Shown piece by piece: positions 3,653 to 41,154 of a DNA stretch of 64,000 bases (within the stretch, counting starts at the first letter, position 1; each line of letters begins with the position of its first letter). Origin of the DNA: Ectocarpus siliculosus (Eukaryota; Sar; Phaeophyceae; Ectocarpales; Ectocarpaceae); assembly GCA_000310025.1 (NCBI GenBank), contig FN649738.1, forward strand, positions 2,965,325-3,029,324, given 5' to 3'. A program made the position numbers and the translations under genes. Under the pieces are notes generated by a model. That model was not told the DNA's origin and ran no database searches. It was given only the letters and a program-made list of their open reading frames with translations.

Positions 3653-6600
3653 ATGGCGACAGACACAGCAGGAGCGGCGGGAGTTTGCGCTGTAGCGGAG
3701 CCGGGCGGGGACGATGATGACGACGACGATGGTTGGCTGTTCGCCGCCGCATGCTCCGATGGGATCGGCGGCAGCCCCGACGCGATTGGACGCTACGCCG
3801 CGATCATCAAGGACGTCGACGCGCACGTCTACCGGCGGGGGATGGCGGTGCTGGCGATGGGGAAGGCCCTTGGGCGCGAGCTCGGGAAGCTGTCAGGAAG
3901 CTCGGCTTCGGTACAGAAATTCCGACAGGTTGGTTGTGCAGAGGACATGCATGCAATATGATCGATCACGACCGACCACGACGACGCCGCTCCTCTCAGC
4001 AAGATGCATAAAAATTGGTCTTCAAAGAACGAATAGATTTCGGGGAGACACAGGAGAGTGTCGTATCATGCACAGGAAACAACGTATAAAACAGACCGAG
4101 ACTATTGTACACAAATCAGGTTCCTGCTTGTAGACTCAGTGTTACAACACAATACGCTGTCTACTCTGTATATGGTAGACTATGTCATACAGCAGTCTAT
4201 GTACGTAACAAAAATGTTGGATGATTTGCAGCAGGTGCTGTACGTGCGCCCCCTTCACTGTTGCACGCCGCGGTAGAAGTTATTTAGTACGAAGTACTTC
4301 GTATATAGTTTATGCCTTACGGATGCACCACTGAACCCTCCAACAACAACAAATGTCGACCAAGGCTACGCCGGCGGCGGATGTTCCCTCCAACCGAATG
4401 GGCACACGCACGATTCAGGTTTTAGCAAGACTTGCGCATCTCATCTTGTAGTACTGTGCGGTGCGAGCCCGTACTACAGGGGGCAAGGTCTTGGCTACCT
4501 GCTATCACCTACTACTCCCTCTGCACGCCTTTCGCAGATTTTGATTACCCAATGGCGCACGTATGTCTGCGCCTTCTCTCGTCTCCTACAAGTTGGGCGC
4601 CACATTGAAGGTTTGTACAAAGTGCACTGTTCATGTGTAGGAGAAGCCTACAGTTACACTCGATTGCGCCTCTCCCCTTTCTCCCCTTGCACTTGAACAG
4701 GAATGCGGTGGCGCCGGTGGTGTTCTCGACTCCGTTCTGGACATCCTCGGTCAGTGCACCGTAACATCACGCACCAAAGCGGGGCGTCGAAGGGGGAAGG
4801 CCCCGGCCTTGTTGGCCGGGTGTGGCGTTGCAGACGCCCTAGCCATTCGCACGAACTGCTGTGCCCTCGTCTCCCTGTTGGCTTCGGCCTTGCTGGAGAC
4901 GGCGGCGACGAGAACGACGGGGAGCAATGGCGCCGAGAACGTCCAAGTTGCCCCTCGTCCTGACCAAAACACCGATAGCCCACGAATGGAAGAAAATGAC
5001 AAGCTTGGCGGTGGCGGTGGCGGTGGTGGTGATTGCGAAGGCAGGGGCGCAGACCCTCTTTTCCAAGCTGCTTCCCATGGCGTCGGGGTTGATGTATGTA
5101 CCGCGTTTGTACCCATGAGCGCCAAACCTAACCCCGATGTGGTCTGCCTGGTTCGGAAAAAGGGGTGGGCGGCGAGGCAACAACAGCAACAGCAACATGT
5201 GCAGCCCACGGAAGGACCAGTGGGGACGATTACGACTCGAAACTCGAACCATTCCCGAGTGTGTGGAATCAACAGCCTGCTCAAGACCAAGCAGCGTTGG
5301 GCGCGTCGTACCCCGGGCGCACGGCTTGGTGGTAGTACCCCTGTCTGCGAAGCGGCCACGGCATCTTCTGACCACCCACAAAAATGCAACGGGCTAAAAG
5401 CAGCTAAAGGCCAGCATTTGGACCGGGTAGCGCTAAACGTAGCCCATCCGAGCGGCAGAGGCAGAAACCGCGACACCAAACACACGGGAGAGGTTGTTAG
5501 TGGCGGTGCTTTGCCCAGGGAACACTCCCCCTCATCGGAAACCCGGCAATGGCGTCCTCGTCATCACCAGTCTGTGTCCGACAGACTTGCTTCCCCGCCC
5601 AGACTCAGTCGTGTCGGGGGGGGTGGAACCCCCGCTCCTGGGCCGCGGCAGCCGGGTCGGTCTCCTCCATCAGAGGGGCGACGTAAAGTGGACAATGGGA
5701 ACACTGTCTTGCCGTTGGGACTGTCAAGCCCTGTCCACCAAGACCGAAATATACCAATACCGGAAAATGTGAGCTACGGGGGGATATTTCCGGGAGAATA
5801 TGGGCATCCTACGGTTGGGTGTGTCGTGGAATTGCCTTGATTTGTCCATCCACATGATAGCGGCCTTACCAGGTCCAGGGGGTTATTTCGTTACTGCTGA
5901 TTTGGCAGGATGTGCAAGTTGTATAGTATTTCGAGGTGGCCATATGATGGCGCGTCCCCATGATCACTCAGACGATATGATGGCATAATATGCCGTATTT
6001 CAACCGCATGGTGTGTTCCATTGATTCAGATAGCGGGTGTTCGGTTGAGCCTGCGTTTGCAGGGAATGCGTGCTAGGTGGAAGTAAATCTTGAACAGAGA
6101 GGAGGCAAAACGAAAGCAGCAACAACCTTATCTGTGGTCGGACTTGTTACACACAGCCCCACAAAGGATAGCAGAGAAGAAAATGTCATTGCACCCTGTC
6201 GAAGCTCCCGAATCAAACTTCGTCTCTAAGATCACTGATTAGACCTGGCCGCCAAGCACGTAGCATTCAGCAGCCCAACAACCGATAGGTTTTTCGTTGG
6301 AGGAAGATCCACGGCTTTGTCAACGATGGGAGTTATCACGGTGACTGTCGACAACAAAACGCATCAGGCACGGCGCGTTTCACGCCACGTCATTGCGACG
6401 TTTCGGTTTTATGGTGCACGTTATCTGAGTCTATTCTGCTCTATGTGATGTTCGTGGTTGTGCTTTAAACCTGTGGTTAAGAATTCTCAGGTGTGGCACA
6501 CGGTATCAGTTTCGCGGCGAAAGCATCGGAAAGAAGCACCCGCAGGCGAGCGGTCGCCACCGGCCATCACCCTCACCCCGGGAGCAAGATCGGAGAGGTT

Positions 6601-10301: not shown

Positions 10302-13300
10302 GTGTGCGCGCCCTGGGCGGAAGATCATGTCACTGAAACCGTTCTTCGGATGCTGCAAGTGGTAACAGTTTGATAACCACCCCATAGTTCGACGCTTGTG
10401 TGCAATGCCTTCGACCAACCGATCAGCATGTTGCTATCGCCCCGATCAGGTACAACTGAACACCAATGCGCTGCCTCTGGCGCTCCTACTCGTGCATCCC
10501 GGTGGCGCGGCCCGAGTGCGAGACTTCGTCGCGCGAGCTCTCTCGCTCTGGCAGAGGGAAAAGTCGAGGGCGAGGATGACACAAGCGTTGGCGAGGTTCG
10601 TTTTAGTGGTGTTCCGCGACAACCCTTCCTCCCCCGTGCCCTTCGTTTGCATTTGCTCTGTGCGTCGTGGCTGCACTTTTTGCATTGAGCTAGGGTAGTC
10701 ACAAGGTCTGTCAGTTCTTCGACCGTCAGCAAAGGACGAACAGGGGAACGTTTAGCGAGGGAAAATGCCTTGGTTCGTCTCAGACGTCCGCTGTTCCGGA
10801 CGAAACATCGTTGCACCATATGCGAGCGGGCGTGTGCTTTGTGTGCTACATACCGGTAGCCGATCGGACATGCTAGTGCTTGCGAAGTGCGCATAGCCAA
10901 GCTAGATACTACCGCCCACCAAAAGTTCAACTTTCTTCTCGCTCGCACGCGGTTGTGGCCTATTCCCTCCCCAGGTGGAAGATAGAGTGTGAGGCTCAGC
11001 GATTCCGTGAGCGGGGCTTGGGGTACAGGACACGTTTCGGAGCCCTCAAAATCAAGGTAAACAGCCACCACAATAATATTGTACCACTCTGGTATAAACA
11101 AATTGCAGAACGTGGCAAAGCGTTAACACGCGGGGGGTGTCACCGCATGGGCGGAACCTTGTGAAGTCGCACATGCTCATGGTGGCAATCAGTCATACTC
11201 GGTTGTTCTGGGTGCCCGACCGGCAATCAAGCCGTCTTGGGGTCCGCAAAACTGAGAGCTGGGCTGTCTCAACAGCGGCCGGCCGTGTTTTGAAGGAGGT
11301 GTCGCTTTGGAGAAGGCTTCGGCATGGCTTACTCCCGGTGATATAAGTGTGCAGCTGATGGAATTTCCGATTGCCAACGAGGCCATAGTTGTGCACAGCA
11401 CGTTCATTGAGGCCAACGTGTCCAAAAATCACGTTAGACGTCTTTTCGACCGGGATGCCACAAACGTTCAGTAGTAGTCACCAGAGCTATTTGCACCAAA
11501 GCAATTTGTACATGGTCAAGACGAATATCTGAGCTCAACGTTGTTGGTGGTGCTACCCAGCAGTGATGCTCATAATTCTTAATTCAAACGCTAAAATATC
11601 GGTCGAATTCGGGTTCCCTTTGAATGTACACTCTTTGCCTAACACGTGGGGAGATAAAATTTCCTCTGGTATGTTAAGTATGGCCTAAAGGTAGGGATTC
11701 CTGACCACTGGGTAATTTGGTCAGGTTGATACTCAGTTGGATTTGCAATAGAAGCTGACCGTTGCGTCTTGGTTGAACGTCTTATAAACGGGCCAAGTAC
11801 GTGGAAGAGCTCATAAACGGGGGGGAGAATGTCTCCTCGTAGCTCTTTGATTGTTGCTCAACACCAAGCGCCACGTGAGACCTGACGATGCTGCATCCGG
11901 GTTCGATTTGTGTCGTCTTATTCTGACTCCGAACGGCTAGGTATCCAAACAGGTTGCTCATTTAATGCTCGAAGGGGTCTTACGCGCTCCTTCCTCTCCG
12001 TGTTTCTTTACCCCTTGTTCATGCTTGCCGGTGGGCTTCTTTCCGTCGACTGTGTGTGTGGCGAATAAGCAACTCGTGAAAAAACGGAGGCCCATGATAC
12101 TAAGGGCCAGACTGGCAAAATGGCGAGCGTTCTGCCGCATGGAAATTTATACCGTTAGGGCGGCGTCAGCGATCCGGATACAAACACAGTACCGAAGGTG
12201 CGCCAATCAAATGCCTCGCGGAGCTTGATTCACCATTCCCCTGAAATATATGTACCAGCAGCACCTGAAACTCGGCGCAGAGATAGATTTCGATTATCCG
12301 GATGGAGGGGCTGCGGAAGAGTTGGCCATGTCTTGAAAGGAACTGATGCTTGGGAAGCCTTTGGTTGGCTTTGAACCCTTGTCGGAACGAAGCAAAATTT
12401 ACCGAGAGGAAGAGTTTATGAAGTCTTCGAAGTTGCACCGTGGTGGATACACGGAGTGATCTCGAAGCTGTTGGGTCCTCCTTGGTGTAACGTACAAAAA
12501 CAGCTCTGAAGTTGTGGACCATTCTCGCACTCGTGTTCGTTCCCGCTCTCGTCTCCCTCTCCGCCGCCCCCCGAAAAGATGGAAAGCGTTTCGATTGTTT
12601 CTCAGCATGCACTACAGCAAGCCGCTCGGGGGAGCCCTCAGTGACATTTATCTGGAAGAGGAGAGAGAAGGCGTTCAATTCAAGTGAGGCGGAGGAGGAG
12701 GGAGTGGGGGGGAGGAGGAGAACGAGGCCTTTCGTATCGGCTACACTTTTCTCGTACACCGCTCACCTTATTATGCATATCGTCCCTTGAGCATTACGTT
12801 GTAAAATGGTTGTCTTTCGTCCGAATGCCCATCAAAACCCCTCACGGAATACTTCAACTCGCTGTTCTTTTTGTTTTGAAATCCGTAATCCTTCGTGACA
12901 TACTCGTGTGCACGATGCACGGGTCAAACTGGCGGTGATTAAAGTGGCCTAGACCGATGAATAGTGGTGGTGGGCACATGTGCAATCTGCCAGCATCACG
13001 TCAGCGTACGGAAGAATCTTCCTCAGGCTTGACAAGCAGGAGTGTGCTATTGTTTCTGGAAAATTATTTGGTTAGAGCCCTGGTGACGAAGGAGATAAAA
13101 TAACACCAGCGCACCAGTTGGCGCTTGTTCCTAAAAATCCATTGTTTGAACCCCCTTCCTTATCTCACACAGCTGATCGCACAAAACTTGTTGAAGCCGT
13201 GGTCGTGAATGCAGCCGCTGCCTCGGACGTGTTGGTACATGAATACTTTGCGCGCGTTCTCTGAATGATTCACCTCGGGAAGTGATCGTAACTAATTTTG

Positions 13301-16300
13301 AGCTTTGTGCCCGCTTTCCCTTCTCGTCGCCCACCCGTCCGCTCGGTCGGAAAAAGGATTGATTCGAGCATCAGGAAAGACCGCCGGTGCTTCTGGGCAG
13401 CTTCCATCGCCATCCAGACCAGGTGGCGCATGCTCCCGAAACGGGCCTTCTTCCGCCTCCTCAAGAAGGAGGTCAAGCGCGTGCAGACGCACTTTCGGAT
13501 GTGGAGTGACCGGCGTGTGTACCTCTTCTTTAAGCGACAGGTAGGTGAACTCGTCTGCCAACACCGTGGCAATGAACGTTGTTGTCGCAAGCGTCGTGAT
13601 CTATGCAAAGTTGTTGTCGCAAGTTGTTGAGGGTTCGGATCGCAAGGTACCACGGCATGTGACGCCTGTTTCTGGATGTTTATCGATCGATGTGCCGACG
13701 TTTTCTTCTAGCGGCAGGTGAGTCAACCGTTGTATGGCAACGGCTGCGTGCAGTAAGTGTGAACGCGAGCGCGCCATGTTGCAAGACGTCGTAAAAGCAC
13801 GCCAAGGAAACCTTGTAGGTACCGGGCACGCGTCATGTAGTTTCTGAAGCACGAACCTGAACGCTCATTTTCATTCCCTTAGTAGAAGGTAAAACCTGCT
13901 TGTGCTATCGGACACGAAACAACTGGAGCTTCGCGATGTGCTGTTGAACAAGAAACGGTCGTTTAACAACAGGTGTCGTCCCGAGACAAACATCAAGCTA
14001 TTCGCCCTAACAAATGAAAAATTCAAAATTACGGGCGTTCGTACAGCGACCCACTTTGCTTGCACAGGCAGACTACCCTTGTGCAATTAAATTAGCACCC
14101 GTACGTTTCCGGTCGTTTCTACGCTCACCTGTTCCCCTGCAGACGATCATGGCGCAGAGCTTCGCAAGGTTGGTGATCTGGAGGCCCAAGTGGTGCAGGT
14201 TCCGGGTAATCCCTCCCGTCATACAGCGCTTTGTCCGCGGGCATCTCGCCAGGTGTGAGGGCGTGATGTGGTGTTTTGATTGTGGCGGTATCCAGCCCTT
14301 CACGATTTAGACACGTTATAGTGTGATTGCCCTTCGGGCGTGTTGTTGTGCTGCGGATGCCTTGTTTGTGTGCTACCTAGGTTGGTGGTATGCCGTGATA
14401 TAAAGCTCGGCGATGGAACTCACTCTCAATACGTCAACGGACGTTTCCCCCCCGTTCTACAAGAACGTGTCCCCAAGAAGTACGGCTACAGTATTTTGAA
14501 CCGCGGGCTCGTTGAATTTGTGGGCAACTCGAATGCGGCAATAAATATAGCTTTTGGCGTATACCTTCGCTTACACTCGAGCGTATGTTCTTACGTTTTT
14601 ATGTCCCTTTGTAATAAATGCGCCTCCCCGCTTTGTTTCCTTTCCGGCATGAGCGAACAGACAAAAGGTCCGTCGAATGCGACAAGCTCAGTACAGAGCA
14701 CTGGAGGTAACGATGGGGAAGGCGGTGCCGTTTCAGACGGCGTGGAGGGGCTTCGCCGCGAGGCGGGCTTTGCGAGCACTTCAAGAGGAGAAAGATAAGG
14801 AGTTTCATGCAGCGGTACTTCTGCAACGCGCGTGGTACAGGTGAAATCCCCCCCTGTCACCAGACTAATCCAGCTAGTAGGTTGCTTCATAAAGGTCCGC
14901 TTTTATGATCACCAGCGACCATTTGGGTCCACCCTTCACTCCTTGAGAAAGGGCAGTGTGGAGGAGCGTCAAACGGCAACAGTCATGTGTTCGCCCCGAG
15001 AACGGCTGGGACCACATTGTAGCTCCGTCGAGGCCGCTCTTACGATGCCCGTGCCCGTGGCCTATTTAGCTCCCCGCCACGGAGTACTGCCTTTTCGTCA
15101 CCTCAAGCAAGATCATCAGCCCTCCACCTTGACAATACTCTGGGCAGCTTCAACACTCGTGTACCTAGCACGTCTTTGGTCCCCGAACCGTTCTCCGGCT
15201 GTGAAACGTGCGCCCGCCATCCCCCAACGCAAGCCTCCTGTTTTTTCTGAATGGTCTTGGGCATACCCCGTGTGTGCCTCCTCTTGGTTCATCGAAGAGC
15301 ATGTTTACTTTGGGGGCTGGACAGAGTAGTCCACGTTGCTGTTCCTCTAAATTTTGCTGATATGGAAGGAGCTGCCAGAACCGTAACCCTCGCGGAAAAA
15401 CGTTGGCACCATTTGTATGCCTGCAACGCTCGTGACACCGAAAATATTACCTGTACCATCGATCAAGCGGACAGCACTCCTGGTACATGTTTTGTTGGAT
15501 GCGGGTCATCCGTTAGTAGGTCAACTCTTTTTGGATCCTTCTGCAATCACGTTTCGCACCGGCGAATGCACTCATGGTTACGCCAGAAAATACTTTTGGT
15601 GCTGTTGCTCCGAGCTACACTTGTTCACAAACCTCTCGCGTCAACCTGGTGCTGATGGCCAACCCTCCCGTGGGATCGTTTTTTTTTCGCACCAGACGCA
15701 TGAATCAGTTCCCGGCGTTTGTGCTGGTCTCATGCCTGCGGATAATGGACAAGTCCGACACGGATAACGCCAGATCCGCCCGGCTGTTCGACCTCAGCTT
15801 GCGCGCGAGACTCTTGCAGGTTTTTCCTTGTTTGGCTGTACGATTGTTCCAGGGTAGATCAAACAACGTGGTAGTCAATGCAAGCCCGGTATATCTCAAC
15901 ACCTTGTTGGCGGAGCTGAGGTCAGCAGATTCTACGTTCGGTTTCCATCCAGGAGCTTTTGTGCTTGGTAGTCTTGAATTCACTGAGTACCTCGCCGAGT
16001 TGAGCGTGACACCGTACCCTACTCGCGGTTGACTGCATGCTTTCCACACAAGTTTCGGTGCTCCGAAGCTGTTATTGTTCACTGCTGGAATCAAGAAAAA
16101 AACATCGGGCCACATTTTGTGCCGCGAGTCTTTCTCCAAGCGAGAGAGGAACATAATGCATGTGCGAGGCATGACACCCTGTGGTTGTGTCTATTCACTT
16201 TCTGCCCGAGCTCTCCGTGCACGAACTAAGCTCCTTACGAACAGTGTCGTTGGAGGCCAATAAGGGTCACCGCATCCCTCAACGCTTACTGATCGCGTCG

Positions 16301-17352
16301 TCTGTAGAGTGCGTTTCAATGCAGTGTTCTACCTTCGGCTTCCGTACCTCTTGACCGTTGCAAGCTACAAGCCCTCGTTGTTTTTGACCATTTACCCGTT
16401 GGGCACAGCGTACATACCGGCGGAGGTATCGGTTTCGGCAACGGAGAGCGGCGATCTTGATCCAATCGTGGTGGAGGATCCGGACAGGATCAGATTTCGT
16501 GGCCAGGTGGGTAAATGGACGGCTTGGTAACGATAACGGGTATAATCCCACGAACAGAGAGGGTAGTGTGTCTCGTGGGCACTTACCAAAGCCTGGACCC
16601 GTTCTTTCGTTCATTCAACATCCTATGGTTGGCTTTACTCTGATCAGCGTTCCCGCTTACCACCAGCGAGAGTTCTTATACCGAAACCCCATCTTGTTCA
16701 ACTATTCCTGCAGTAGGTTCTCTTCTCCTTGAGGGAATAACATATGCAAGAAACACCTCCCCGTAGCGTGCCATTCGCCGATCGCCATCCAGGGAGAGTT
16801 TTACGTCGAGTGTCGTGTAACGTGATAGTTTGGCTTGTCATACAAAGACGTGCGAACCTATGACTCAGGTGCGAAGCCAGGGACAGCCATGGTAAAAGGG
16901 TGCATGCTGTTTAGTACAAAGTACCTGGTTTTGCTCGGCTGCCAGTGGACGTAGACTTGAATGATTCGATACGTGACTCCATTGGGACAGTCTCATCCAA
17001 CTTTTGATAGGCTGTGGCGCGAGCCGGTCGTTGTTCCGGGCACAGCACGTTTTCAAGGCATTCCCCCGTTAACACGTTGCCTGCGATATGTACTCTATGG
17101 GTTCGCAAACGAGAAAGACCCACCAAGCACGAGACGTGGGCAGAAGGCCAAATCGGCACGCACGTTAATTGACACCCATCGCTGAGCATCATGATGGTTT
17201 TTTGGGGGTATACAACAACTTGCAAGAGACTAAAAGTTCTGAATCTTACTTCAAAGCAACCTTTGTTTCGTTCTCGTGGATCCGTTTCATGATTCCTTCC
17301 TGTCTTGTCTGTCTGCCTGTCTGTCTGTCTGTTCTTCTCCTTATCTGTCTGT

Positions 17353-17423
<71 letters not shown>

Positions 17424-26400: not shown

Positions 26401-26508
26401 CACGAACTCCGGCGAGACCCTCCAAAACCGGTTCTACCGGCAGGGGACGAAAGGGCAACAACAACAGGTCTCCAAACTTTGAAGCCTCATCTCATTCTAG
26501 TTGCAAAG

Positions 26509-26569
<61 letters not shown>

Positions 26570-29500
26570 GAGAGAGAGACACAGAGAGAGAGAGAGAGAC
26601 ACACAGAGAGAGAGTGCGAGAAGCGAAATCCGACAGAGAGATGTAGAGATAGAGAGGCCTTCATCACTCCCTAGGAACCTACAAGAGTGCCGTAGAGGCA
26701 GTTTGTCCTGCGCACCTTTGCCTCCAGTCGAACCGCGGTGCACAACCGAAGGAAGGTTCTACGTAGTGGGCCGTGACCCGTCCTCTCACCAAAAAATCTA
26801 CTGTAACAGGGGATCGACGGCTGCTGCAGCGAACGGTCCTTCCAGTGGCGGCAGCAGCAGTAGAGCCTCACAAGCGACATCGCCGACGAGGGGGGAAGGC
26901 GCATCGGGGGGACAGTGGAGGGGCCCGGCAGGGGAAGGCTGGATGCGAGGCGAGGTGTTCCTGGTGAACCCAACCGAGGTGGTGTCCGCGGAAGGGGTCA
27001 AGAGGTACCCGAAGGGCACGTTTGGAATCAGGTGAGTCGGCGGGGAACGCTATCAGGCGAATGGTTATCTGTTTGCTGTGCTTGTTTCTCTCCATGGTGC
27101 GTGCTCCGCCCGGCTCTTGTGACCGTTTCTTGGAGAACTATCGTTCATGGGAGGAGCGGGTCCTGGTATCGGAAATATGTGGATGGGTCGCAATTTCGTA
27201 GTTTCCTTTGAGTTTAGACATGGTAGCTATGATAGGAGGCTTGTGCCGCGATTGAATGCTGCGTTTGTCACGACGATATCCTCCCGAGCAAGGTGGCCTC
27301 TGAGAGAACCAAGGTCAGGATATGGTTTTGCTTGCTATTTACTACGCTAGTGCATTGCTCGACGGACTGCTAGACTTTCAGTCACCATCGATCGCAGTAA
27401 CAAACCGTTGTCATTTTCGCAATCGTCGATCGTGTCGTTATATATTGGCAGCGTCAGCAAGATGCATGGGCATATTGTGCCACAACCCCACACAAAATAC
27501 CCTTGACAGTGCCGGTTCCTTGTACTCGTTCATGCAGGTACCTAGATACAGGCGAAGAGATCCCCGATGTGCCTCGCGACTGCATCCGCGCGCTCACGCT
27601 CACGCCCGGGATGAAGGTAGAGGCGAGATACGGCGGGGGCCTCGACTACTATCCAGGGGTAATCGAAGGGGTTAATACGAGGTGCGTTTCGGATGACGAC
27701 TCACGGCTGGCCGGCGCGCGTGCATCGTGTTGCTTCGGCCTCAGCATCCCTACCACTTTGCTCGAGTGGGGCACGTTGGTGTGTGTACCAGGGTCAAGCG
27801 TGGGTGCTGACCAAGGGTCATCGCGGTAGGCCACTGTTGGCCGTGTGTGTATCTGCGTGGCACCTCCCAGATACGGCGACAGGGCGTCACGGTGCAAGCT
27901 TGTCTCTTGTTTTGTCACATCATGCCTCTCTTGTCGATTTCTGAAATATTCACACGCGGAAACTCAACGACATACACAAGTTGCTTGAGCCACACTTGTG
28001 GTAAGAATTTTCATCATATAGACTAGGCCGCAAGATTCACCGTATCGCACCTACGGCGAGAACTCTGCCTCTCCTCCACCCCCTTCGACTCTCGCGCTCC
28101 CTGTTCTATACAACAGAAATGGATTGGCCCTGTCCTACTCCGTCAAGTACGAAGACGGGGACACTGAAAAGGTGGTCAAGCGGGGTCACATCGCTCCCTT
28201 TCCCGAAGAGGTGAGAAATTTGAGCGGGACCTTGTGCGCCCATTGTCTTTCGCTGTTTCCGACTGATGAACGCACCGGCCATGACACCGAGGGAAACAGG
28301 CTTTCCCCGTATTCACACGAGACATGCTCAGGAGGCACTACTACGCTTTGCTTCGGGGCTTGGCCCCAAGAGATAACCCTTACCCTAGCTTTCACGCCCA
28401 GACGTGTACGCTGGGATTTGTTTGCTGTTGTTGCTGGTGCTACCAAAGTTGGCCATCATCCACGTGGCACCTCCCGAGCTCTTGGAACTATATTCCCGGA
28501 AAGGGATCACTCTTTTGTGGTATTCTGCTGCCGTTGAGGCCGCCCGCTCATGATGTCTCGGCGTGAAGGTAGCCCATGGGAAAGTCCCCTAGATAAGGGA
28601 CGAAATGCCTCCTTTCTGAACCTCCTCCAACCTTTGGGTCACCGTTTCTGTTAGGTGGCGGCTCTGGATGCCGTGGCGGCCGAATTAAGGGGGAAAGCGG
28701 CTGTCCGACGCGATCGTGCAAAGTTTTTACAGCGTCGCAGGTGCGCACCTAATCAACGTGCTAAATGCGTCGTATTGTTGTTATTGTTGTTATTTAATGA
28801 TCGAATTTGCCCATGTAGGTAGACCAATCTGTCTCGTACGGAACACGTATTACATCACCCAAAAACCTCTGCAAACGTTCAACAATATTCCAATTTCTCT
28901 GTCAAGGAAACATAGGGTTCGAGGGTGGGCACACAATATCATTAACATCCGTTTCATGCGCGATACGCGCAGGCCCATGGCGTTGCAAGACTGCCGTGCC
29001 AAAACCTGTTGAGTTGAGGTATAGCACCGTCGGTTGATATGCCTCACATTCTGCGCGCGGCTTCAAGGCCCCGCTACATGATACAAATAGTTCGGTAGCT
29101 GTGAAATGTGTTGGCCCTGAAACTGCACAAACTCCTTCGGCTTGCTCCTACTTTTTACTCCTATTAGCTGCACAGAGTTCTCCTCCCGGAGGCAAAAACA
29201 GGCGCCACAACGCTATTGGTAGGGTGTCGTCTCCCGCAGTGGTAGAAGATGAACACGCAACAATCACCCGGAGTCACGACCTAGCATACGCTCGGCTGCT
29301 GTTGCCAAAAATCGTCGACAGGGCCGTGGTTGCGTCTGCGTGGCGCGAACGAGTCCAAAAGGCGGAGGACGACTATCTCGCCGCCGCCACCGCCGCCGCT
29401 GTGGTCGCCGAGGCAACACCAAAGAAGCAGGCCTCGGGCAAAGGAGGGGCAAGGGGTCACCACTTTGCCTCAGCTGCCGTCGCCGCCCGCCGAGTGGGTG

Positions 29501-31541: not shown

Positions 31542-31579
<38 letters not shown>

Positions 31580-34500
31580 AGCGGCAGGCGGAGCGGTGCG
31601 CACAGGTGGTGGTGTTGCGTCGGGGGCCGCCGGTGACGCGAAGCTGCTCAAGCTCGGGCTCGAGTCGACCGTGGATCGGCGGAGGGTGATGGCGGTGGTC
31701 ATGAAAGAGGAGCCGAACCCTTCCTTAATCAACTGGTTCGAGGTGTGCTTGGATTGGAATGCTTCCACCCTAACAAGTGGGCAGAGTGGAAACGAAAACG
31801 GGCAAGAAAACCATCACCGTAGCCTTCTAGCGTAAGGGGTCCAACTCCAAGCGTTAAAACAGGCAAGGTAGGTGCCTTCCGGCAACCTGTTGGGGTGTGG
31901 GGAACAACTAAACCGCAAACGTGTTGCCGAGGATGAGCACTTGAACTAGTGATGAAATACGCGAAACCACCTCCGCCATGTTTGCTCGTTTCTGTTCCCA
32001 ACACCGCAATCTACAGGGGCCGACAGACCACAAGACGGTTTCGGCCGCCATCGCCGCCGGGGAAGCACAGGCGTTCAAGCTCGTGTGGAAGACCTTCCCC
32101 GGGAACCAGTCCCGTGCCGAGAGCATGTCGAAAAGGGTGGCGGCGTCAAAGTACCCGGTGACGAGGTGGGGAGGGTGATTAACTTACACGTGATTCGCGT
32201 TCAATTGAATCGAGTCTTAAAATGTCCCGAACCTTGCGCTGCGTTGAGTCTCGCCAAGATCGTACTGATGGGCTCAGACGTATGTGCCGATCGACGCGGA
32301 CTTGTCGTCCAGGGACACTGACGCCACTCACTAAAACTTCGCTCGGTTTTAAGTGCAGACGTGACGAACAATACCGGAGCAACATCGTAGCATTTCAACC
32401 TACAGGTCAAGGCTACTTTGAAGGGGGTCTGACCAAAGCCGCGCTCCCGACTCTCGTTCGAGGGACCCCTCTCGCTCTATTCGTCCGAACTCTGGTGCTT
32501 AACTGCAGGATGCAACTCACGGCGTGGCTCAAGAGGCACGATGGTCGTCCCGGAGTCGCCCAGTCATCCATGTCCGAGCAGCTCGTCGACGTAGCGGTAA
32601 CGTCCTCGAGGGAGGCAGAGTCAGCGGCGTACGAGGTAGGCGAGAGCGTTTCGTGGTGGTGGTCTGCGGCCTTACATTCCAAGCGAGAACGGCGTGCAGG
32701 AATACCGCGAAGATTATCCACCGCCACGCATACCACGAGGATTTGTCAACCATCACAAGAATAGGCTGTGTTACCCAGCTATCTGCCAGTGACTACGGCA
32801 TGCACGTCCCTCGCCAGGTCATTCATCTCTCAATTACTGTTCCGGGACACAGCGGGCGATCGACGTTTACCCCGCAGCATGCCCTGGCCCCGGCAGAAAC
32901 CACTGTTAAAGCAAATAAAACGGGTATTCGCTTGTTTTGGCTGCCAGTTTAAGAAGAGAACGATTCCAGAGGTTTCCACTACAAGGCTTAAACGGAGGCA
33001 TAGGTGTACGATAGCTTCTCAATCGAAATCCGCACACCGCCGTCCATCAATGTACGGACGTCTATCCCCACCCGAAACACACAGGTGTACCGGCTCTTCT
33101 GTCAGCGTCTCTCTATACTGGCCTCCAATATGCGCCTCACGGGGCTGCGGAGCGCCATCACTCACGCTGCGGCCAAAGCCGACGGCATCCTCGCAACCCA
33201 CGCTGATGCCGCTTTCGACGGTAGCAAAGACAACACCGGCGAAGGCAACCTTGCTGCTAAGATGGGTTCATCATCGTCCTTATTAAAAGGATCTCGCAGA
33301 AAGGATGGCAGCAGCAGCGTGGATGCTGCTTCTGGGAATAGCAAAGGTTAATATAGCACATCCGCGATAGTCTCATACTCTGTAGAGGACTTCAGCTAGT
33401 CTTTGTCAGAAATTTGGCATTTTAATCATATCAACAACAGTTGACGTACACCGGGAAGTGACACCAATGATGGGTCAGCCCTCTGTAACAGTTTCGACGG
33501 TACTGTTTTCAACCGTTTTCACCCCCACGATCCAAACGAGTGCATTCTTTGACGAATGGGTTCACTGCAAACGTGCTGCTGTCATGTTTCACAAGACGGT
33601 CGGAAGCAAGCAACCGCGGCCTTGCAGGCGCTGAAGGGGAAGCTTGGCGATGTCGGGGAAGCGGAAGATGCAGCGTCGAGAACCTGGGCGCATGCAAGAG
33701 CGGCGCTGGTGCTGAGAACAGAAGGCGTGTCCGTTGCTTTGCGCTGGGTTTCCGCTGCAAAGGCCATCCAGGTATGCCACACATTCTTGGGAGCATCTAC
33801 ATGAATTTTGGCCGTCATACGTACGTATTTTCGAGGTGGACATCCCCCCAAGACGTTGTCATTGGTCATGTACAACATTCGTCAAACCCATACTTGGGTG
33901 CACTTAGTCGAGCTATGTAAGACGTACCGCCTCGATCCAGTGGTGTCGCTCTTTTCAACGTACCGTACGCACGAGAGCTCACTGCACACCCCCCCGCCGG
34001 TGCCATCATCACCACTACCGACGACCGAGAATCGATCGTTCTCCATCGCCGTCATTCTCACATAACCCCCGCAACAAAAAAAAAGGTGGCCTTCCGAGGG
34101 TTCCGGTGCCGTAGTTCCTACCGCGCGCTGCTGGCAAGGAGGAGGCGCGCCGCGACCATGATACAGTCAGCGGAGCGGCGCAAGAGAGCATGCGCGACGG
34201 CAGCAGACCTGAGAGAACAACGCGCTAGCCCGTGGGAACAGCTGTGGGACGACGAAAATGGCCGACTGTATTTCTTCTTCAAGGTGTCGTCGATTGCTGT
34301 GCAGGCTTCAGATTCGTCCTTTATGACATGTAGCATCGTTGGAGTCTGATGGGCTCATCGTGCGCGCCTCGCGACGTGCAAGAGTTGTCTTTAGTGACAC
34401 AGAGGGAGATTTGGACATACGAGGGCACGGGCAACATGGCAACCGTCCCTCGTGCCGTACAAGTTGGCTCTATCGATGCAATTGGGCAGCAGCAGGGGTT

Positions 34501-37500
34501 GTACTTCTTCGGTAAGGCTTATCTCGACAGTACTCGTTGTCTCCCCTCTGGTTCGATCGCGGTTGCTTCTATGTTTACAAGGCATACGTACCAGGAGCGA
34601 AGGTGAGCTTCACTACGTCTCGTTAACACCATTTGCTAGAATGTCGCAATAATCCACTGTCCTGAAGCTTCGCGCTGAATACAAGCCTCCTCCTCCCGAA
34701 ACTTTTGCGTCGCTTTCGGTTCATAAATTCAATACATCAGGATACGGGTGAGTCATATTGGGACCCTCCGGATGAGCCGTTCCGACCAATGATCCGCGAC
34801 CGACTGTCTGGAGCCCTCGTTCAAGCCTGGCCGCAGCTAGAAAGAGAGCTGTTGGAGGTGCAGTGGGGGTGCTGAAGAAAGTAGTTTGCAGTTTTCGTCG
34901 TTCTTCTGAAGACTATATGTGAACTATTTCCGGAGCTTCGAGCATCTTACATTCCGGGAGGGTCCCAACGGTAACGGTTGGCACACAACAGTACAACTCC
35001 TTTCATTTTTACACATCTTGAAAGGAAGGAGCATTACTTCTCGCCAATCAGGAAGAAGAATCCTCGAAACAAGCGAAGTCAGAAAGTGTCTTGTTCCGTA
35101 TTTCGCAAGTTTTTTTTTCCCACTCGTTTCATTGATGCCCGCCCTTCTTTCGCAGGCGGTTGGAGCAGCACCGGGGTACTGCATGCAATGCAAGACAGAG
35201 AAAGCCACCCGAGTGTGCGACCAGTGCACGTTTGGCGGACGGAAAAAGCCTGCGTGGGGCGGCGGCAAATACCACTTGTGCTTCGTCTGCTTTGCGGTGA
35301 GAAAAAGGACAAGTTTGACGCTTCTCCCTGAACCAGTTTGTGGGTGTTTCCTTGTCTCTTTAAAATGTGTATTGTTGGTCCACTTGCCCATCTACGCGCT
35401 GCAGCTTTTGAGCTGTAGGTGTTTTGCTTTCAGTCCTATTCTACTGGTGGCGGTGATCCTCCGAACAGTTGCGGTATGTCAACGTTCCACATCTAGGCTG
35501 ACCACGAAAAGAACGAGTCGTGCCAAGGAGCTGCTAGCAAATTCTGCATTGGTTTCGACCATTGTTTCCTGGGATAGCGCGATCGAACTTGCATGCTACT
35601 GTCTATCCCGCCTCTGCCGGGTTCCTGTTCATTCCCCACCATCCATCCTTTCGCAAGTTTCTTTGCAAACCTAAGCCATTCCATCACTCGCTCCGGAACA
35701 AACAGCTGTTTACTAAAGGGATACTTGTTCGTTTTACTCCGTGTTCCTCTCCCTCGCGCATGTCCATTTCTCGGCGTTTACAAATGTGTCTCCAGGAGCG
35801 ACACGCCGACACACCAGAACTCACCAGCCACACGTTCACTCCCGTCCATACGCCTGGGAGTGGCGAGCTCACGTGCAGCCTGTGCGACCGTCCGGCCTCG
35901 CGCAGGTTTGTTAGCGTTTCCGATGCTGCTGGTGCTCCTTGATATTATTGTCGCGTTAAAACACAATTTGCTCAATCTATCTATCCTGCCGATGAGGGTG
36001 TGGCCCTTGAATACGCGATCGTCGCGCCCAGCCTATTGGAAAAGAAAGCTTCGTGCCCGTGTACTTCGTGCATCAGTTCGTTGGCCCGGTCCTCTGCTGT
36101 TTCATTAATGACAAGGGTGCCACATGCAGCAACTCGGCGTAGGACACGCTGTTATCCCCGATGCACATGTCGTACCATGCGCGGAATGTACGTCAACGAC
36201 AACTGTCGCGAAACCTCGCCCCTCTGCACTTCTGATACAAATACTCAATCAGCAGGTGTGTAGACGAAAGGGTTCCGAGCGAAAATGAGAACGGAGCAAA
36301 GTTGGAAGCTTGTGCTGCTCACCCAATCCTAGTCGCAGAAGACAACAACAAAAAAACGAACGGCGATTGATAGATGCCTGACAAATGCACGCGCGATCAA
36401 TCGTTGGTGATCAACAGGTGTAGGGGCCTCGAGCTGCCGGAAAGGGCGCTGGTCGTCGCCGCTCGCATGCTGCAGAACGCGCGGCTGGCGGCCGTCTTGG
36501 AGGGCACGGCCGCAAGGGGGCACCCACCCCATCCGTCGTCGTCGTCGTCGCGGTCGCCGGGCGTTCCCAACAGCTCGTCCGCGGCCACGACGAAGGCGTC
36601 AAGCTCGACGGCAACGGGAGGAAGCATCTCCTTGGGCGGTGGTAGCAACAGCAACAAGACGAGGAGGGCCGGTGATCCCCCGGTGTCCCGTGAAGAGTTC
36701 GAGCGCATCCTGGCCGTTTGCGACCTGCCCTACAGCCTCACGTGGGCGGATGCTACCTACGAGCTGTGTAACGGGGAGGTCGGGGTGCAAGGAGAGGTGG
36801 AGGCCTACGGCGGTTACGGCGAAGGCAAGGCCAAAGAGAAGAAGAGGAAGGTGCTGCGAACGTCTGAGCAGTTTTGGGCTGCCTTCGGAGCGGCACTGGT
36901 TTCGGCCGGCGATGATTGCGACGATCTGCTGTGTGGGTGAGACCAAGGAAGCCGGGAACAGGCACATCGGACTAGGAAACATCTTCGGCCACAATTCAAC
37001 CAATCGCTTACCCCAGCCACGAATACCTTCCTCTCCTGAGCCCATTCATAAGGTCTTCGGTTTCGACTTTAGATATGCTCTACATGAGCGATGCACTTTT
37101 CTTTTCCCTGCCAAGAGCCGCCGACCGCAGAAGGCTGAAACGAAAAGAAGATCATTTATATATGGCTTTTGTGTTTCCTGGTTCAGAAGAACAGCCTCTT
37201 GGAGATGAAATCGGGTACCCGTTGTTTTCCAAGGGCATTGTCGATGGGGCTGCGCGTACCACAGGGAGGACGTCTAACGGTGTGAGAGATCCACATCGAC
37301 CTCGAAAAAATATCACCAAGCCGATCTCTATTGACAATTACTTGAAGTTATGATATGAATTTATGCTCTGCTTTTGGCACAACAGCGAGTGCTGGGAGAG
37401 CGTCCACAAGCGAGGCGTCCGAGCGAGTCACCGCTGGGAAGGCTTCCGCACGGGATCGCCGGCGTGCGTGGCGTGTCGCCGCAGCCCTGCAGAGCGAAAG

Positions 37501-40500
37501 TGCAACGTCTGCAATGATCTACTGTGTGCGCCCTGCTTCATTGAGAGGTCGGAAAATACGCTTGGTCATTTGGCTGCCTGGGCGGTATGTTTGAGGGGGT
37601 CTGGAGATTGTGCTTCACGGAACATGAAACAGGCGCAGAACTACAGTAGCGGTAGTGTCAACAGCAATAGCAGCAGCAATGCCTATGCCCGCCATAGCTC
37701 CAACAAAATTTCTTCCCCCAAATCGCTCGCTTATTCCTGCCGGTTCGTTGAATTTCAGCCACGCGCTCCAAGCAAGAAATCGTAGTACTCCTACCGCTAG
37801 TACCGACGAATCTTTAGATCCATGCGAGCGCGCGCTGAACAAACTCAGCTGTTCTCGTGGTCTGACCAATACTACTAGCATTTTGCAACGGCACGTGCGA
37901 TGCTCGCTGTTTTTCACAGTCACGCTAGGGGGAAGAAACAGCGACACTCTTGGCGGACGTGCCTGGAGGAGCCGTTGGAGCTACCCCGGTGCAGTGAATG
38001 CCATCGTAGGGTGGGCGACAGGCGGTGCGAGAGCTGCGAGGTAGACCTATGCGACTCATGCCAGGCCTTCACGCACGCAAGGGTGAGAGACAACGCGCGA
38101 ACCTGGTTTTTAAAGGGCACCTTCTTGTGCAATACAAGAAAAAAGACGAGTGTATGCCCGCATACTGACGGGGGGGGGGCTCCGTACATCAGCAACTCGC
38201 CGCCTCTTCCCGATTTACCTAACCGTACTTCGGACACCACGAAGCCGTTAACCAGAGGCACACCTGAAATGCATATTGAGTGCGCGTTTCGATCCTTGCG
38301 TTCTGTGTGCTGCTCGACGACCCATGAGCAGACATGTCCTCACGCCAACGAAGAAGGGCGTAAGGGCTCCTCAACAGCTGGCGGCGACCACAGCGGGAAG
38401 CACGCGCCCAAGAGAGCTTCGTCTAGTGGGGCCGTCGGATGCGGGGGTCGTCACCCGGCGGTCACGAAGCGACAGAAGAGGGAGACGGACGAAATTTTTG
38501 CCTCCCTCACCCTGGAAGGGACCGAGGTAAAAGAGAAGCTGATTGTTGCGCGCGTGCAAGGGCATGTTCCTCCCAAAAGACAACTTTCTTCGCGTTTGTT
38601 TTTGGAGTCTGCCAATTGCAAAAGGCATGATAAACGTAGGCCTTTTGCAGATGTGGCCGTGCACCCAGCGCCACCAGTATTTTTAAGGATCATGCAACCA
38701 AAATGTGTTTCTTGGTCTTGACTATCTTCTCCGTGTACTCTCGTCACTTAATGCTTTCGCTCTCTGGACCACAAAACTGAAGAAACCAGGAGGAAACAAA
38801 GCGCAGCGATACGCGCCCCCTCGTTCCCTTCCTTCTTGCTTCGCGTGATGGTCGGCGTGCTGGTGTCTATTAGTAGCTTCGGTCGATTGGACGTATATAG
38901 CCCTCTTGATCCAGCAAAAATAACATGTCTCCGCGCTTCCGCTCATGGTCCCTCTTTGCATGCCTGCTCCCCCCCCCCCCCCCCCCAACTAANNNNNNNN
39001 NNNNNNNNNNNNNNNNNNNNNNNNNNNNNNNNNNNNNNNNNNNNNNNNNNNNNNNNNNNNNNNNNNNNNNNNNNNNNNNNNNNNNNNNNNNNGGTCCTTT
39101 TTGAAAACCCCCCCCCCCCCCCCCCCCCCCCCACCTACCTGTTCCTGGTTGCCTACCGATCGACCTGCGTTCCTGTCTACATCACTTCGGTTGATCTGAC
39201 GAAAAAACCAACACGGTTCCATATGGAAAAAAACAAACAAACGAAAGCTGAAAGGAGACCTCAGAACGTTGTACGCCCTTGACCGAATCCTGGGAGTTGT
39301 GGAAGATTCCTCCGAAGACACAGCCACAACAGAAGCAGGGGCAGCTAAGCAACAGAAGAAGAGGAACGGGGGTGAAAATGAAACGAATACGAAAGAGGAG
39401 GGCGAAGAAGACAAGGAGAAGGGGGAGGAGGAAGAGGAGGAGATAGACGAGATGCCGCTGGTTTGTGATGTATGCGGGAAAACTCCGGACGTCGAAGTGA
39501 GTGCTCGAACCGAATGGGGGCTGGGTTCGCGTGAGACGGCCGACGGGGCGCGTCGTTAACCTTGCTGACCACTGCTATTGAATACCCGTACCCGTGTTTT
39601 TGTTGCAGCCAATTCGACATCCCCCAAATATGCGAGGCAATGGTTTGAAGCATGTGGTGTCGGACCCGTGTATTGGATCGTTGCTAGGCAGCTATCAAAT
39701 GCCGTTACTGTAGTTTCCTCTTCGTTTTCGGTTTGGTTAACACGTTTCGCTCCCGCGCCCCTTTTTTCTTTTCGTTTTCAGTGCGAGGAATGCGGCACCG
39801 TGTACTGCTCCAACACCTGGGTCGGCAACCCCGGGTGCTTCATCAGAGATCACGAGCGGGGGAATCGCCGCAAACACACCAAACGCGGGTAAGTCCAGCG
39901 TAGTAGAGGGTGCTGTTTGAAATAGGGCGAAACATAACATAGTACATCTACTGCCGGGAGGAGAGATTCTTGAAAATCAGACCTGATGGACGAAGAAGAA
40001 ATATCGCAACATCGAAGGGAACACGAAAGCGCCCGGTCCTTCGCATGCGCCTCAGGTGTTTCCACCCTGGGAAGTGTGCCCAAGGCGTATGTTTCAGTTT
40101 AGATCGGTGATGCGCTGAAATAGGTCTGTGGCGTCTAACCGTGGCCTTAGACAAAGAGACCACGTGAGGCTGCCGAGAAAAGTTTCCCTCTCTGTCTCCC
40201 TCCCTGCCTGTCTCTTCAAACCTCCTGCATCGCACAAGTTGAAGTCGCGCCGACCAGATAATAGAGTGAGTTGAAAGATGGGTACGCCGTGGGGCACAAC
40301 GGCATCGAGCACGGGGTTGGATCGGCCGGATATTGTGCTGACTTGGCCTTCCTCTCCCGTCTATGTCAACGCAGATACACGCACGCAAAGGACTTGTTGA
40401 AAAGGGCAAAGAGGAAGGAGAAGGAGGAGAAGGAGCGAAAAGAGCGGGAAAGTCGCCAGAACGGGGAGGCCCGCCGGGACGAAAAGGCCAACAGAAAGCG

Positions 40501-41154
40501 GCGCCTGAAACTGGCTCAAGAACGCGAGGTGAGCACCGGCTCCGTCGAAATAAAAGAGCTGTACCGCACGTTAGCTCTGAATCCGCCCCCACCTGTTCGT
40601 AGCAAGAGCAAACTCCACTTCGACCGGCTGACGCTCCCCGCCCCTCATGACTGTCCTGGGTCTCGGAATAGCACGGGGTAGTCTGGACAACCATTTCAGC
40701 GTTGTTGTTTTGGCGCGCGATTGTTGCTGGTGCTCTTCCCGCTCTACAATTCGCCCCAACCCAACAGTTGGCGCGCGAGCTGAGGCTTCAGAAGGAGGCC
40801 AAGAAGGAGCTGAAACGACGGATTCGTCGCCGCAAGGCCCGGGCGGCGGGCCTCAACCCTTCTCTGCTCCCCAGACTCAGGGTCAAAGCAACGGAGTTTG
40901 CAAGCAAGCGAGGCTTTTTCTTGTCACAACACCCGAATTTTCTCTCCGTTCGAATACCTCCCGGCATTGCGATGACCACGCGAAGACTAGTGGATGCCCT
41001 CCGGGGGCATGAGAGGGCGGCGGGTCGAAGGGACATTGATACTATTGGTGGTGACGGTAGGGGTAGAAGAAGTCCGAAGGGAGCGGCGAGAGACCGAAGC
41101 AGAAGTAGGACCAGAAGCCCGGCCAAGAAAAGGCATCGAAAACGCCTGAAATGA
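3653..41154 (+). CDS. Giant multi-exon gene: IQ-array, Tudor-like, WW and B-box zinc-finger protein
   Basis: I chained about 57 exons on the plus strand. Every junction has GT and AG ends and a matching codon phase, and the coding length is 12,213 bases (4,070 residues plus a TGA stop at 41152-41154). The start ATG at 3653 directly follows an in-frame TAA, so translation begins there unless an upstream exon exists. Order of parts: helical N-terminus and low-complexity region (residues 1-1270), IQ motifs (about 1400-1850, 2180-2350, 2800-2830, 3235-3285), tandem Tudor/Agenet-like modules (about 2450-2570), WW domain (about 3290-3325), five B-box-like fingers (about 3350-3890), basic SR-rich tail (3950-4070). 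IQ motifs bind calmodulin or related EF-hand light chains, WW binds proline-rich peptides, Tudor-like folds bind methylated ligands, and B-boxes bind zinc and proteins. I do not recognise a named family. A calmodulin-regulated scaffold is an inference. Splitting into two genes is possible but the unbroken phase argues against it. The exon lists are in the block entries. Confidence 0.8.
10450..19952 (+). other. Giant gene exons 7-21: first IQ-motif array
   Basis: Exons: 10450-10595, 10975-11056, 11355-11432, 12070-12197, 12606-12683, 13375-13540, 14143-14252, 14697-14840, 15696-15819, 16409-16506, 17444-17582, 18057-18179, 18418-18540, 18910-19073 and 19698-19952. IQ-like motifs (hydrophobic-Q-x3-R/K pattern) seen: AASAIRIQTQYRR (exon 10), AASIAIQTRWRMLPKR and VKRVQTHFRMWSDRR (exon 12), PPVIQRFVRGHLAR (13), VPFQTAWRGFAARRA and AAVLLQRAWYR (14), AAILIQSWWRIRT (16), ASWLIALCWLRSR (17), AAAKLQGAVRGQRVRR (18), AAVFVQRIVRGYIHR (19), LMAIRLQRSWR (20). 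They lie about 30-50 residues apart. IQ motifs bind calmodulin or myosin-light-chain-like proteins and stiffen into lever-like helices. No myosin motor precedes them. Exons 9-11 are short and the acceptor of exon 10 is the least certain. Confidence 0.78.
17301..17416 (+). repeat. CTGT and CT microsatellite next to a splice acceptor
   Basis: CTGT-type repeats at 17301-17353 run into an almost perfect CT tract of about 29 units at 17359-17416, followed by the acceptor AG just before exon 17 at 17444. The tract is in the right place and orientation to be the polypyrimidine tract of that intron. Confidence 0.9.
22352..22404 (+). repeat. 19-base minisatellite, three copies
   Basis: Three head-to-tail copies of a 19-base unit (CCAACCGCCGTCGCCCATG), the third partial, lie in the intron just before the acceptor of the exon at 22415. 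The copies are identical where they overlap, which suggests a recent expansion. Confidence 0.9.
23071..23117 (+). repeat. 10-base tandem repeat in an intron
   Basis: About five units of TGCTTCGCGG or TTCTTCGCGG stand in tandem within the intron between the exons ending at 22922 and starting at 23279. No function is evident. Confidence 0.9.
25885..28740 (+). other. Giant gene exons 31-36: two Tudor/Agenet-like modules
   Basis: Exons: 25885-25969, 26015-26069, 26810-27031, 27538-27681, 28117-28210 and 28655-28740. The joined protein holds two similar beta-rich blocks. The first has GWMRGEVFLVNP, then GTFGIRYLDTGEEIPDV. The second has GMKVEARYGGGLDYYPGVI, then YSVKYEDGDTEKVV. Both show the pattern of Tudor or Agenet folds: an entry strand with G-x-V or a bulky pair, an aromatic Y-x-V-x-Y strand, a D-G-D/E turn and a following V strand. 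Such modules bind methylated Lys or Arg or act as SH3-like protein binders. The intron between exons 31 and 32 is only 45 bases. Family assignment rests on pattern alone. Confidence 0.65.
26511..26632 (+). repeat. GA microsatellite with CA interruptions
   Basis: A long GA tract broken by short ACAC blocks fills about 120 bases of the intron between the exons ending at 26069 and starting at 26810. A reading frame passes through it, coding for Arg-Glu repeats. I treat it as intronic because only the acceptor at 26807-26809 keeps the phase of the flanking exons. Confidence 0.9.
29202..33346 (+). other. Giant gene exons 37-44: linker region with an IQ motif and alanine/glycine tracts
   Basis: Exons: 29202-29620, 30043-30217, 30701-30866, 31102-31301, 31499-31742, 32017-32165, 32509-32635 and 33085-33346. 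Exon 37 begins ordered (LAYARLLLPKIVDRAVVAS) and ends Gly/Arg-rich. Exon 39 has an IQ motif (AMRKVQAAWAGFMGRRAF). Exon 40 looks like a helical bundle piece (IEMWLLRAGVSPPDAHRV) and ends in poly-Gly. Exon 41 contains a GCG repeat coding for poly-Ala. Exons 42-44 are helical with no known motif. The start of exon 37 is the least certain junction. A second frame inside exon 37 is open as well, but it breaks the phase of the next exon. Confidence 0.7.
31543..31573 (+). repeat. GCG trinucleotide repeat coding for poly-alanine
   Basis: An almost pure run of GCG units lies inside exon 41 of the giant gene and codes for about ten alanines in the supported frame. Other frames would give poly-Arg or poly-Gly. 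Confidence 0.85.
33596..34857 (+). other. Giant gene exons 45-47: IQ motifs and a WW domain split by an intron
   Basis: Exons: 33596-33771, 34086-34283 and 34741-34857. The joined protein has AAKAIQVAFRGFRCRSSYRA across the exon 45/46 junction, a clear IQ motif, then ATMIQSAERRKRA. Next is a WW domain: SPWEQLWDDENGRLYFFF in exon 46, completed by DTGESYWDPPDEP in exon 47. The first W, the aromatic strand, the T-G turn, the second W and the closing P-P are all present. WW domains bind short proline-rich ligands. The acceptor of exon 46 follows a run of nine A, which is unusual, but phase and protein continuity support it. Confidence 0.82.
35156..39888 (+). other. Giant gene exons 48-55: five B-box-like zinc fingers
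   Basis: Exons: 35156-35296, 35796-35905, 36418-36936, 37386-37547, 37929-38082, 38332-38526, 39248-39496 and 39782-39888. Finger 1 is CMQCKTEKATRVCDQC, then YHLCFVCFAERHADTPEL. Finger 2 starts CSLCDRPASRRC, then after about 165 residues DDLLCGECWESVHKRG. Finger 3 is CVACRRSPAERKCNVC, NDLLCAPCF, GKKQRHSW. Finger 4 is CSECHRRVGDRRCESC, EVDLCDSCQAFTHA. Finger 5 is CDVCGKTPDVECEECG, then RDHERGNRRKHTK. The repeated Cx2C-x7/8-Cx2C-x4-Cx2C...H...H spacing is that of B-box fingers. Exon 54 also has a long Glu/Lys run. Its acceptor (39246-39247) is purine-rich and only moderately supported. The intron between exons 53 and 54 contains the N gap. Confidence 0.8.
38969..39132. other. Assembly gap of 100 N between two poly-C runs
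   Basis: Bases 38993-39092 are N. The left side ends in a run of about 18 C (38969-38986) and the right side begins with a run of about 25 C (39108-39132). The gap lies inside an intron of the giant gene, so it does not by itself interrupt coding sequence, but an exon could be hidden if the true gap is longer. Confidence 0.98.
40375..41154 (+). other. Giant gene exons 56-57: charged helix and basic SR-rich C-terminus
   Basis: Exons: 40375-40528 and 40768-41154. Exon 56 is a Lys/Glu/Arg-rich helix (for example RAKRKEKEEKERKERESR). Exon 57 starts with another basic helix and ends with RDRSRSRTRSPAKKRHRKR before the TGA at 41152-41154. The tail resembles SR-type and bipartite nuclear-localisation sequences, so a nuclear location is plausible. 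A small intron inside exon 57 cannot be excluded because part of the exon reads as less constrained sequence. Confidence 0.75.

Follow-up and report, generated by a model that had tools for sequence, protein, structure and literature searches.

The locus described here raises the question of whether a 37-kb stretch of the Ectocarpus siliculosus genome encodes a single, very large protein, and whether such a protein would be one of a kind. The stretch lies within the window that we analysed, i.e., 64,000 nucleotides of contig C13 (C13:2965325-3029324; GC content, 54 %) in a genome assembly of 189 Mb and 492 contigs; positions given without a contig name are those of the window. A first-pass annotation, made from the letters alone, had proposed a protein joining an IQ array, Tudor-like modules, a WW domain and five B-box fingers in an order matching no named family. 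Our analyses suggest that the stretch most likely encodes a single, very large predicted adaptor protein in which calmodulin-binding regions are combined with Tudor, WW and B-box modules.

Gene model

Without guides, a home-made HMM gene finder trained on 264 kb (the window plus 200 kb of neighbouring sequence, of which 63,405 bases are N) returned at its stricter settings one plus-strand gene of 24, 28 or 31 exons with ends exactly at 3653 and 41154, which corroborates the ends originally proposed. Two looser settings instead placed the start at position 7 of the window, by way of weak exons. An initial self-trained version of the finder called too many introns (between 951 and 1,632 across its four rounds), merged far more, and was discarded. 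The full exon chain was obtained with guides, namely 54 peptide stretches marked in three frames of 10.3-42.3 kb and in the unprocessed letters at 3-14 kb. With these guides, the finder linked 60 exons; 14 of these were removed by hand (whole or re-cut) and 10 were added. The resulting model is slightly smaller than first estimated (~4,070 residues, ~57 exons):

3653..41154, plus strand: whole gene model, hand-curated; 56 exons, 12,069 nt of coding sequence, 4,022 aa; ATG at 3653, TGA at 41152-41154; introns of 148-1,013 nt, median 442
38993-39092, no strand: 100-N assembly gap inside a model intron, between exons 38332-38551 and 39324-39496

Exons may be absent from the model at this gap, just after which lies a run of 25 C (39108-39132). 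A splice site scores under 1.5 in eight of the 56 curated exons, one exon within the IQ array (15696-15819) is doubtful, and many short exons of the guided run have low or negative coding scores. When the minus strand was run separately with the strict finder, a 3-exon gene at 17354-22047 was predicted, overlapping the plus-strand model, together with a second gene that reaches 40094 and overlaps the last exons of the plus-strand gene. Dinucleotide arrays are present in the model introns (GA at 26512-26621, TC at 17358-17423); the GA array, open in all three plus-strand frames, mimics an exon encoding RE repeats. An Rfam search returned nothing at gathering thresholds.

Elsewhere in the window, eight neighbouring ORFs were scanned, five of them giving no match. 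The minus-strand ORFs at 45558-46106 and 53712-57588 yielded Pfam matches to PP2C phosphatase (4.2e-28) and the cyclic-nucleotide-binding domain (1.1e-11), along with protein kinase pieces under cut-off; plants are known to combine PP2C, cNMP and kinase domains.

Is the exon chain one gene?

The unbroken phase of the chain, its length as a multiple of three and its single stop had been taken as strong evidence for one protein, an argument that we do not retain because these properties are enforced by a phase-constrained model and prove nothing. Since the chain is uninformative by construction, we made a phase-blind splice-site test at the junctions, in which the best donor and the best acceptor near the guide ends were chosen irrespective of phase for all 53 inter-guide gaps. 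The best-scoring sites were in phase at 35 of 53 junctions, as compared to a mean of 20.2 after shuffling of the acceptor phases (P about 1.5e-5), in a test that is not fully blind because some guides came from phase-aware runs and a few end inside exons. In a skip-one control, which paired each donor with the acceptor of the next gap, 25 of 52 pairs were in phase. Because the phases are unevenly used, this permutation replaced a binomial with a chance of 1/3 (1.2e-6). The agreement was seen in both halves of the gene (22/31 vs 11.8 permuted, P 4e-5; 13/22 vs 7.8 permuted, P 0.016).

Forcing a gene boundary into any of the 55 introns lowered the score by at least 12, of which, by our own reckoning, ~6 is the built-in start/stop penalty. 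Without guides, the chain is weakest at 10.3-12 kb, between the N-terminal part and the IQ array, where a split costs 12.2; with guides, weak links are found at 7534/7932, 14840/15696 and 34857/35156 (split cost, 12.6-13.6). A low score (1.1) is also seen for the donor that precedes the N gap, at 38551. Moreover, splicing is needed to complete the Tudor and WW modules, and the sites involved are top-scoring regardless of phase. The same need exists for finger 3 and one IQ motif (AAKAIQ/VAFRGFRCR, the stroke marking the junction), but their splice sites are not the top-scoring ones and were picked by hand or by a phase-aware run.

Domain content of the predicted protein

The following features were placed on the model:

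3653..10301, plus strand: low-complexity N-terminal region of ~1,300 aa; G/S/A/P/Q make up 43-47 % of each 250-aa stretch as far as aa 1250
12070..19952, plus strand: IQ array; Pfam IQ (PF00612) 5.1e-9, 35.6 bits (cut-off 20.3), five stretches, aa 1301-2043
19698..20493, plus strand: possible, weak SAM-like domain; Pfam SAM_2 E 0.21, 12.2 bits (cut-off 20.5)
22415..24541, plus strand: charged segment with further IQ-like motifs, by eye; motifs without Pfam match
26950..27622, plus strand: possible Tudor-like half across the 27031/27538 splice, by eye only
27538..28210, plus strand: Tudor/Agenet-like module across the 27681/28117 splice; profile matches, all under curated cut-offs
33596..34283, plus strand: IQ motif made whole at the 33771/34086 splice, plus another IQ-like stretch, from the model and IQ patterns
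34086..34857, plus strand: WW domain interrupted by the intron at 34283/34741, phase 0/0; Pfam WW 1.6e-5
35156..35905, plus strand: finger 1, encoded by exons 35156-35296 plus 35796-35905, followed by the opening CxxC of finger 2; ANCHR-like_BBOX 8.8e-4
36418..38082, plus strand: tandem made up of the second half of finger 2 and fingers 3 and 4; ANCHR-like_BBOX 8.1e-13, zf-B_box 1.3e-9, three stretches each
39324..39888, plus strand: finger 5, interrupted by the intron at 39496/39782; under cut-off for both ANCHR-like_BBOX (0.0076) and zf-HIT (1.9e-4)
40375..41154, plus strand: charged C-terminal tail; coiled coil by eye, closing with a basic, RS-rich run and the stop codon

The N-terminal region gave no Pfam match below E 0.1, either in six of its exons or in the 33-nt exon 7087-7119, which was scanned inside a piece. 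The IQ array, in turn, is borne out by a Pfam match above cut-off in the spliced model; six relaxed and four strict IQ patterns fall in aa 1301-1870 (shuffled means, 0.49 and 0.02), and degenerate further motifs can be discerned by eye within the array. At the 33771/34086 junction, which completes the IQ motif ahead of the WW domain, the best-scoring acceptor is a different one and out of phase. A three-frame Pfam scan with X at the stops proved insensitive, with one sub-threshold IQ in the one 9.9-kb stretch scanned.

Of the Tudor-like modules claimed in the plural, one is supported by profiles, under their cut-offs (Tudor_5 1.6e-5, 25.0 bits vs 31; Agenet 5.9e-4, 20.7 bits vs 27; Tudor_3 2.1e-4; PTM_DIR17_Tudor 4.3e-4), and the second, upstream of it, is discerned by eye only. 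A PDB sequence search with aa 2044-2619 returned one match, PHF20L1 (E 0.38), over the Tudor module, and the same search with aa 3202-4022 returned nothing at E<=0.1. The WW domain was recovered by Pfam just below cut-off (25.3 vs 26.9 bits), over profile positions 3-31 of 31.

In the spliced model, the fingers match the ANCHR-like B-box (PF22586; 4.4e-14, 52.7 bits, cut-off 27) and zf-B_box (PF00643; 6.5e-8, 33 bits, cut-off 24.1), in four stretches each. The proposal of five B-box fingers stands for the block of fingers 2-4, whose three stretches at 36.9-38.1 kb reach 48.7 bits (cut-off 27), and is weaker for fingers 1 and 5, which remain under the ANCHR-like_BBOX cut-off at 19.8 and 16.8 bits. 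Within the block, finger 2 is imperfect, with no clean second CxxC pair, and finger 3 is joined across 37547/37920 (phase 2/2) by a hand-chosen splice. The second half of finger 1 is 33 % identical over 42 aa to a finger on contig C18.

Related loci in the same genome

A genome search with four protein pieces, covering 800 of the 4,022 residues, revealed only domain-level matches apart from the locus itself, and no Tudor match next to other B-box loci. Using the Pfam models genome-wide, we found B-boxes at 21 places (E<=1) in 17 loci, the window included, and WW and IQ at at least 125 and at least 118 places, respectively, many of these under cut-off. In the exon-by-exon B-box scan of the genome, only one finger of the window appears, under cut-off (23.4 bits). 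A WW or IQ match lies within 15 kb on the same strand at six of the 16 other B-box loci (7/17 with the window), where chance predicts 1.1 % per locus, and on the opposite strand at none of the 17; ten of the 17 lack a WW or IQ neighbour within 15 kb. Five of these regions were read over 4-10 kb each, as motif and profile matches rather than gene models:

C18:1.2155-1.2234 Mb, one strand: three IQ, then a sub-threshold WW (25.5 bits), three B-box-like fingers and a last IQ
C26:5.780-5.787 Mb, one strand: seven IQ-like motifs, two B-boxes, two WW
C1:1.970 Mb, one strand: IQ-like motif, B-box, WW, the last two under cut-off
C6:1.667 Mb, one strand: WW and B-box; 1,045 of 4,001 bases are N
C3: four IQ-like motifs several kb ahead of a sub-threshold B-box with an internal stop

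The C18, C26 and C1 loci resemble the window in that IQ motifs, WW and ANCHR-like B-boxes, some of them under cut-off, lie on one strand within about 1-7 kb, while the likeness of C6 is confined to WW and B-box on one strand. All three of IQ, WW and B-box were found at C18 (its WW under cut-off, as listed) and C26, and the fingers of both loci are 30-50 % identical to those of the window over 22-60 residues. Module order varies, since C26, unlike the window, carries WW after the B-boxes. Given that parts of the domain combination recur in the genome, the gene looks like an outsized member of an undescribed group and not a one-off; what sets it apart is the combination with Tudor, which was seen at the window alone.

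Tudor-like repeats that are 37-51 % identical to the Tudor of the window occur in large numbers in open frames of 1,767 and 485 aa (C27:3540390-3543677 and C153:25-1329), and nine WW matches lie on one strand within 8.5 kb at C15:1688048-1696493. A scan of viral contigs with a 193-aa piece gave seven pattern matches and no confirmed relative.

Discussion

Could the chain have been assembled from more than one gene? Two or three adjacent genes on the same strand may have been wrongly joined, for example a low-complexity gene at 3.6-10.3 kb, an IQ gene at 10.4-25 kb and a Tudor-WW-B-box gene at 26-41 kb. The lowest unguided split costs do fall at 10.3-12 kb, some splice sites are weak, one exon is doubtful, and the other loci that we read carry IQ, WW and B-box without Tudor. 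Such a split is nevertheless penalised at every forced boundary and is at odds with the phase agreement in both halves; moreover, IQ motifs lie on both sides of the Tudor module, and at other loci IQ is found close to the B-box. We consider this explanation unlikely, though it is the most plausible of those opposed to a single gene.

The C-terminal end poses a narrower problem, as finger 5 and the tail, which follow the N gap, could belong to a separate or cut-off transcript, with the main gene ending near 38.1-38.6 kb. The gap itself, the weak donor before it and the minus-strand prediction reaching into this part are in line with such an end, whereas finger 5 is again B-box-like, albeit under cut-off, and an unguided split at 38551/39324 costs 32.9; we regard this version as rather improbable. 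A third view, in which open segments line up by accident or the gene has decayed, draws on the many short exons of low or negative coding score, but it is hardly compatible with profile matches down to 4.4e-14, with the excess of in-phase junctions over permutation, or with fingers that share up to half of their residues with those of other loci, and we give it very little credence. Hence, the single-gene reading, i.e., one ~4,000-residue non-enzymatic scaffold that is an enlarged, Tudor-bearing member of the genome's IQ/WW/B-box set as grouped by us, is the one that we favour, with a probability of roughly 0.6. No catalytic domain was matched by Pfam in the segments scanned, and the giant multi-domain scaffold put forward in the first-pass annotation remains the best reading.

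Several known proteins share parts of this layout. IQGAP proteins are scaffolds with WW and IQ, and also CH and RasGAP domains; the window protein shares WW and IQ in one scaffold with them, but it has Tudor and B-boxes, and neither CH nor RasGAP was matched in the segments scanned. TRIM proteins carry a RING finger before the B-box, and in them, as in the window protein, B-box zinc fingers lie near a charged segment; unlike them, the window protein has IQ, WW and Tudor, and, in the segments scanned, no RING match except Prok-RING_1 at finger 5 (E 0.39, 11.1 bits vs a cut-off of 29.1). The B-boxes score best against the model named after ANCHR/ZFYVE19, a protein that has a FYVE domain, whereas our protein has several B-boxes and no FYVE match in the segments scanned. 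Myosins and ASPM possess IQ arrays, together with a motor (myosin) or a CH domain; IQ array and WW are shared with the window protein, in which neither a myosin motor nor CH was matched in the segments scanned. The protein would be a variant within multi-domain calmodulin-binding scaffolds, with calmodulin binding predicted from the sequence.

In the literature, WW domains and IQ repeats are described to occur in myosins, and heterokont myosins to have gained many domains (PMC3942036). Calpains of brown algae and oomycetes contain WW (PMC10762896), in an account whose available part mentions neither 'IQ motif' nor 'B-box' nor 'Tudor'. The one paper found to name all of IQ calmodulin-binding, B-box and WW domain is PMC2394772, where they are entries in tables of single domains. 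Among titles and abstract openings, with few subscription journals covered, we found no brown-algal IQ/WW/B-box protein family and no named family with the order seen here, and the earlier statement to that effect stands uncontradicted within this coverage.

Along the sequence, the modules are ordered as IQ array, Tudor, IQ, WW, tandem B-boxes and basic tail, with WW and Tudor just under their cut-offs. Judging from the names of these domains, the IQ array could form a long helix carrying calmodulin or related EF-hand proteins, and calcium might alter its shape or occupancy. The WW domain would bring in proline-rich partners, and the Tudor module would recognise a partner by its methylated Lys or Arg; protein contacts or self-association may be driven by the tandem B-boxes. 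Possibly, calcium would thereby set the timing of partner assembly on the scaffold. More tentatively, and less probably than the reading of this one locus, brown algae or stramenopiles more widely may possess an undescribed family of calmodulin-gated IQ/WW/B-box scaffolds that arose by domain shuffling, in which the added Tudor of the giant member would tie calcium signalling to the recognition of methyl marks. The modules are all known; that a single ~4,000-residue protein uses them together would indicate an unnamed class of scaffold, as would the repeated pairing of IQ, WW and B-box across one genome, and the locus offers a concrete target for how this lineage wires its calcium signals.
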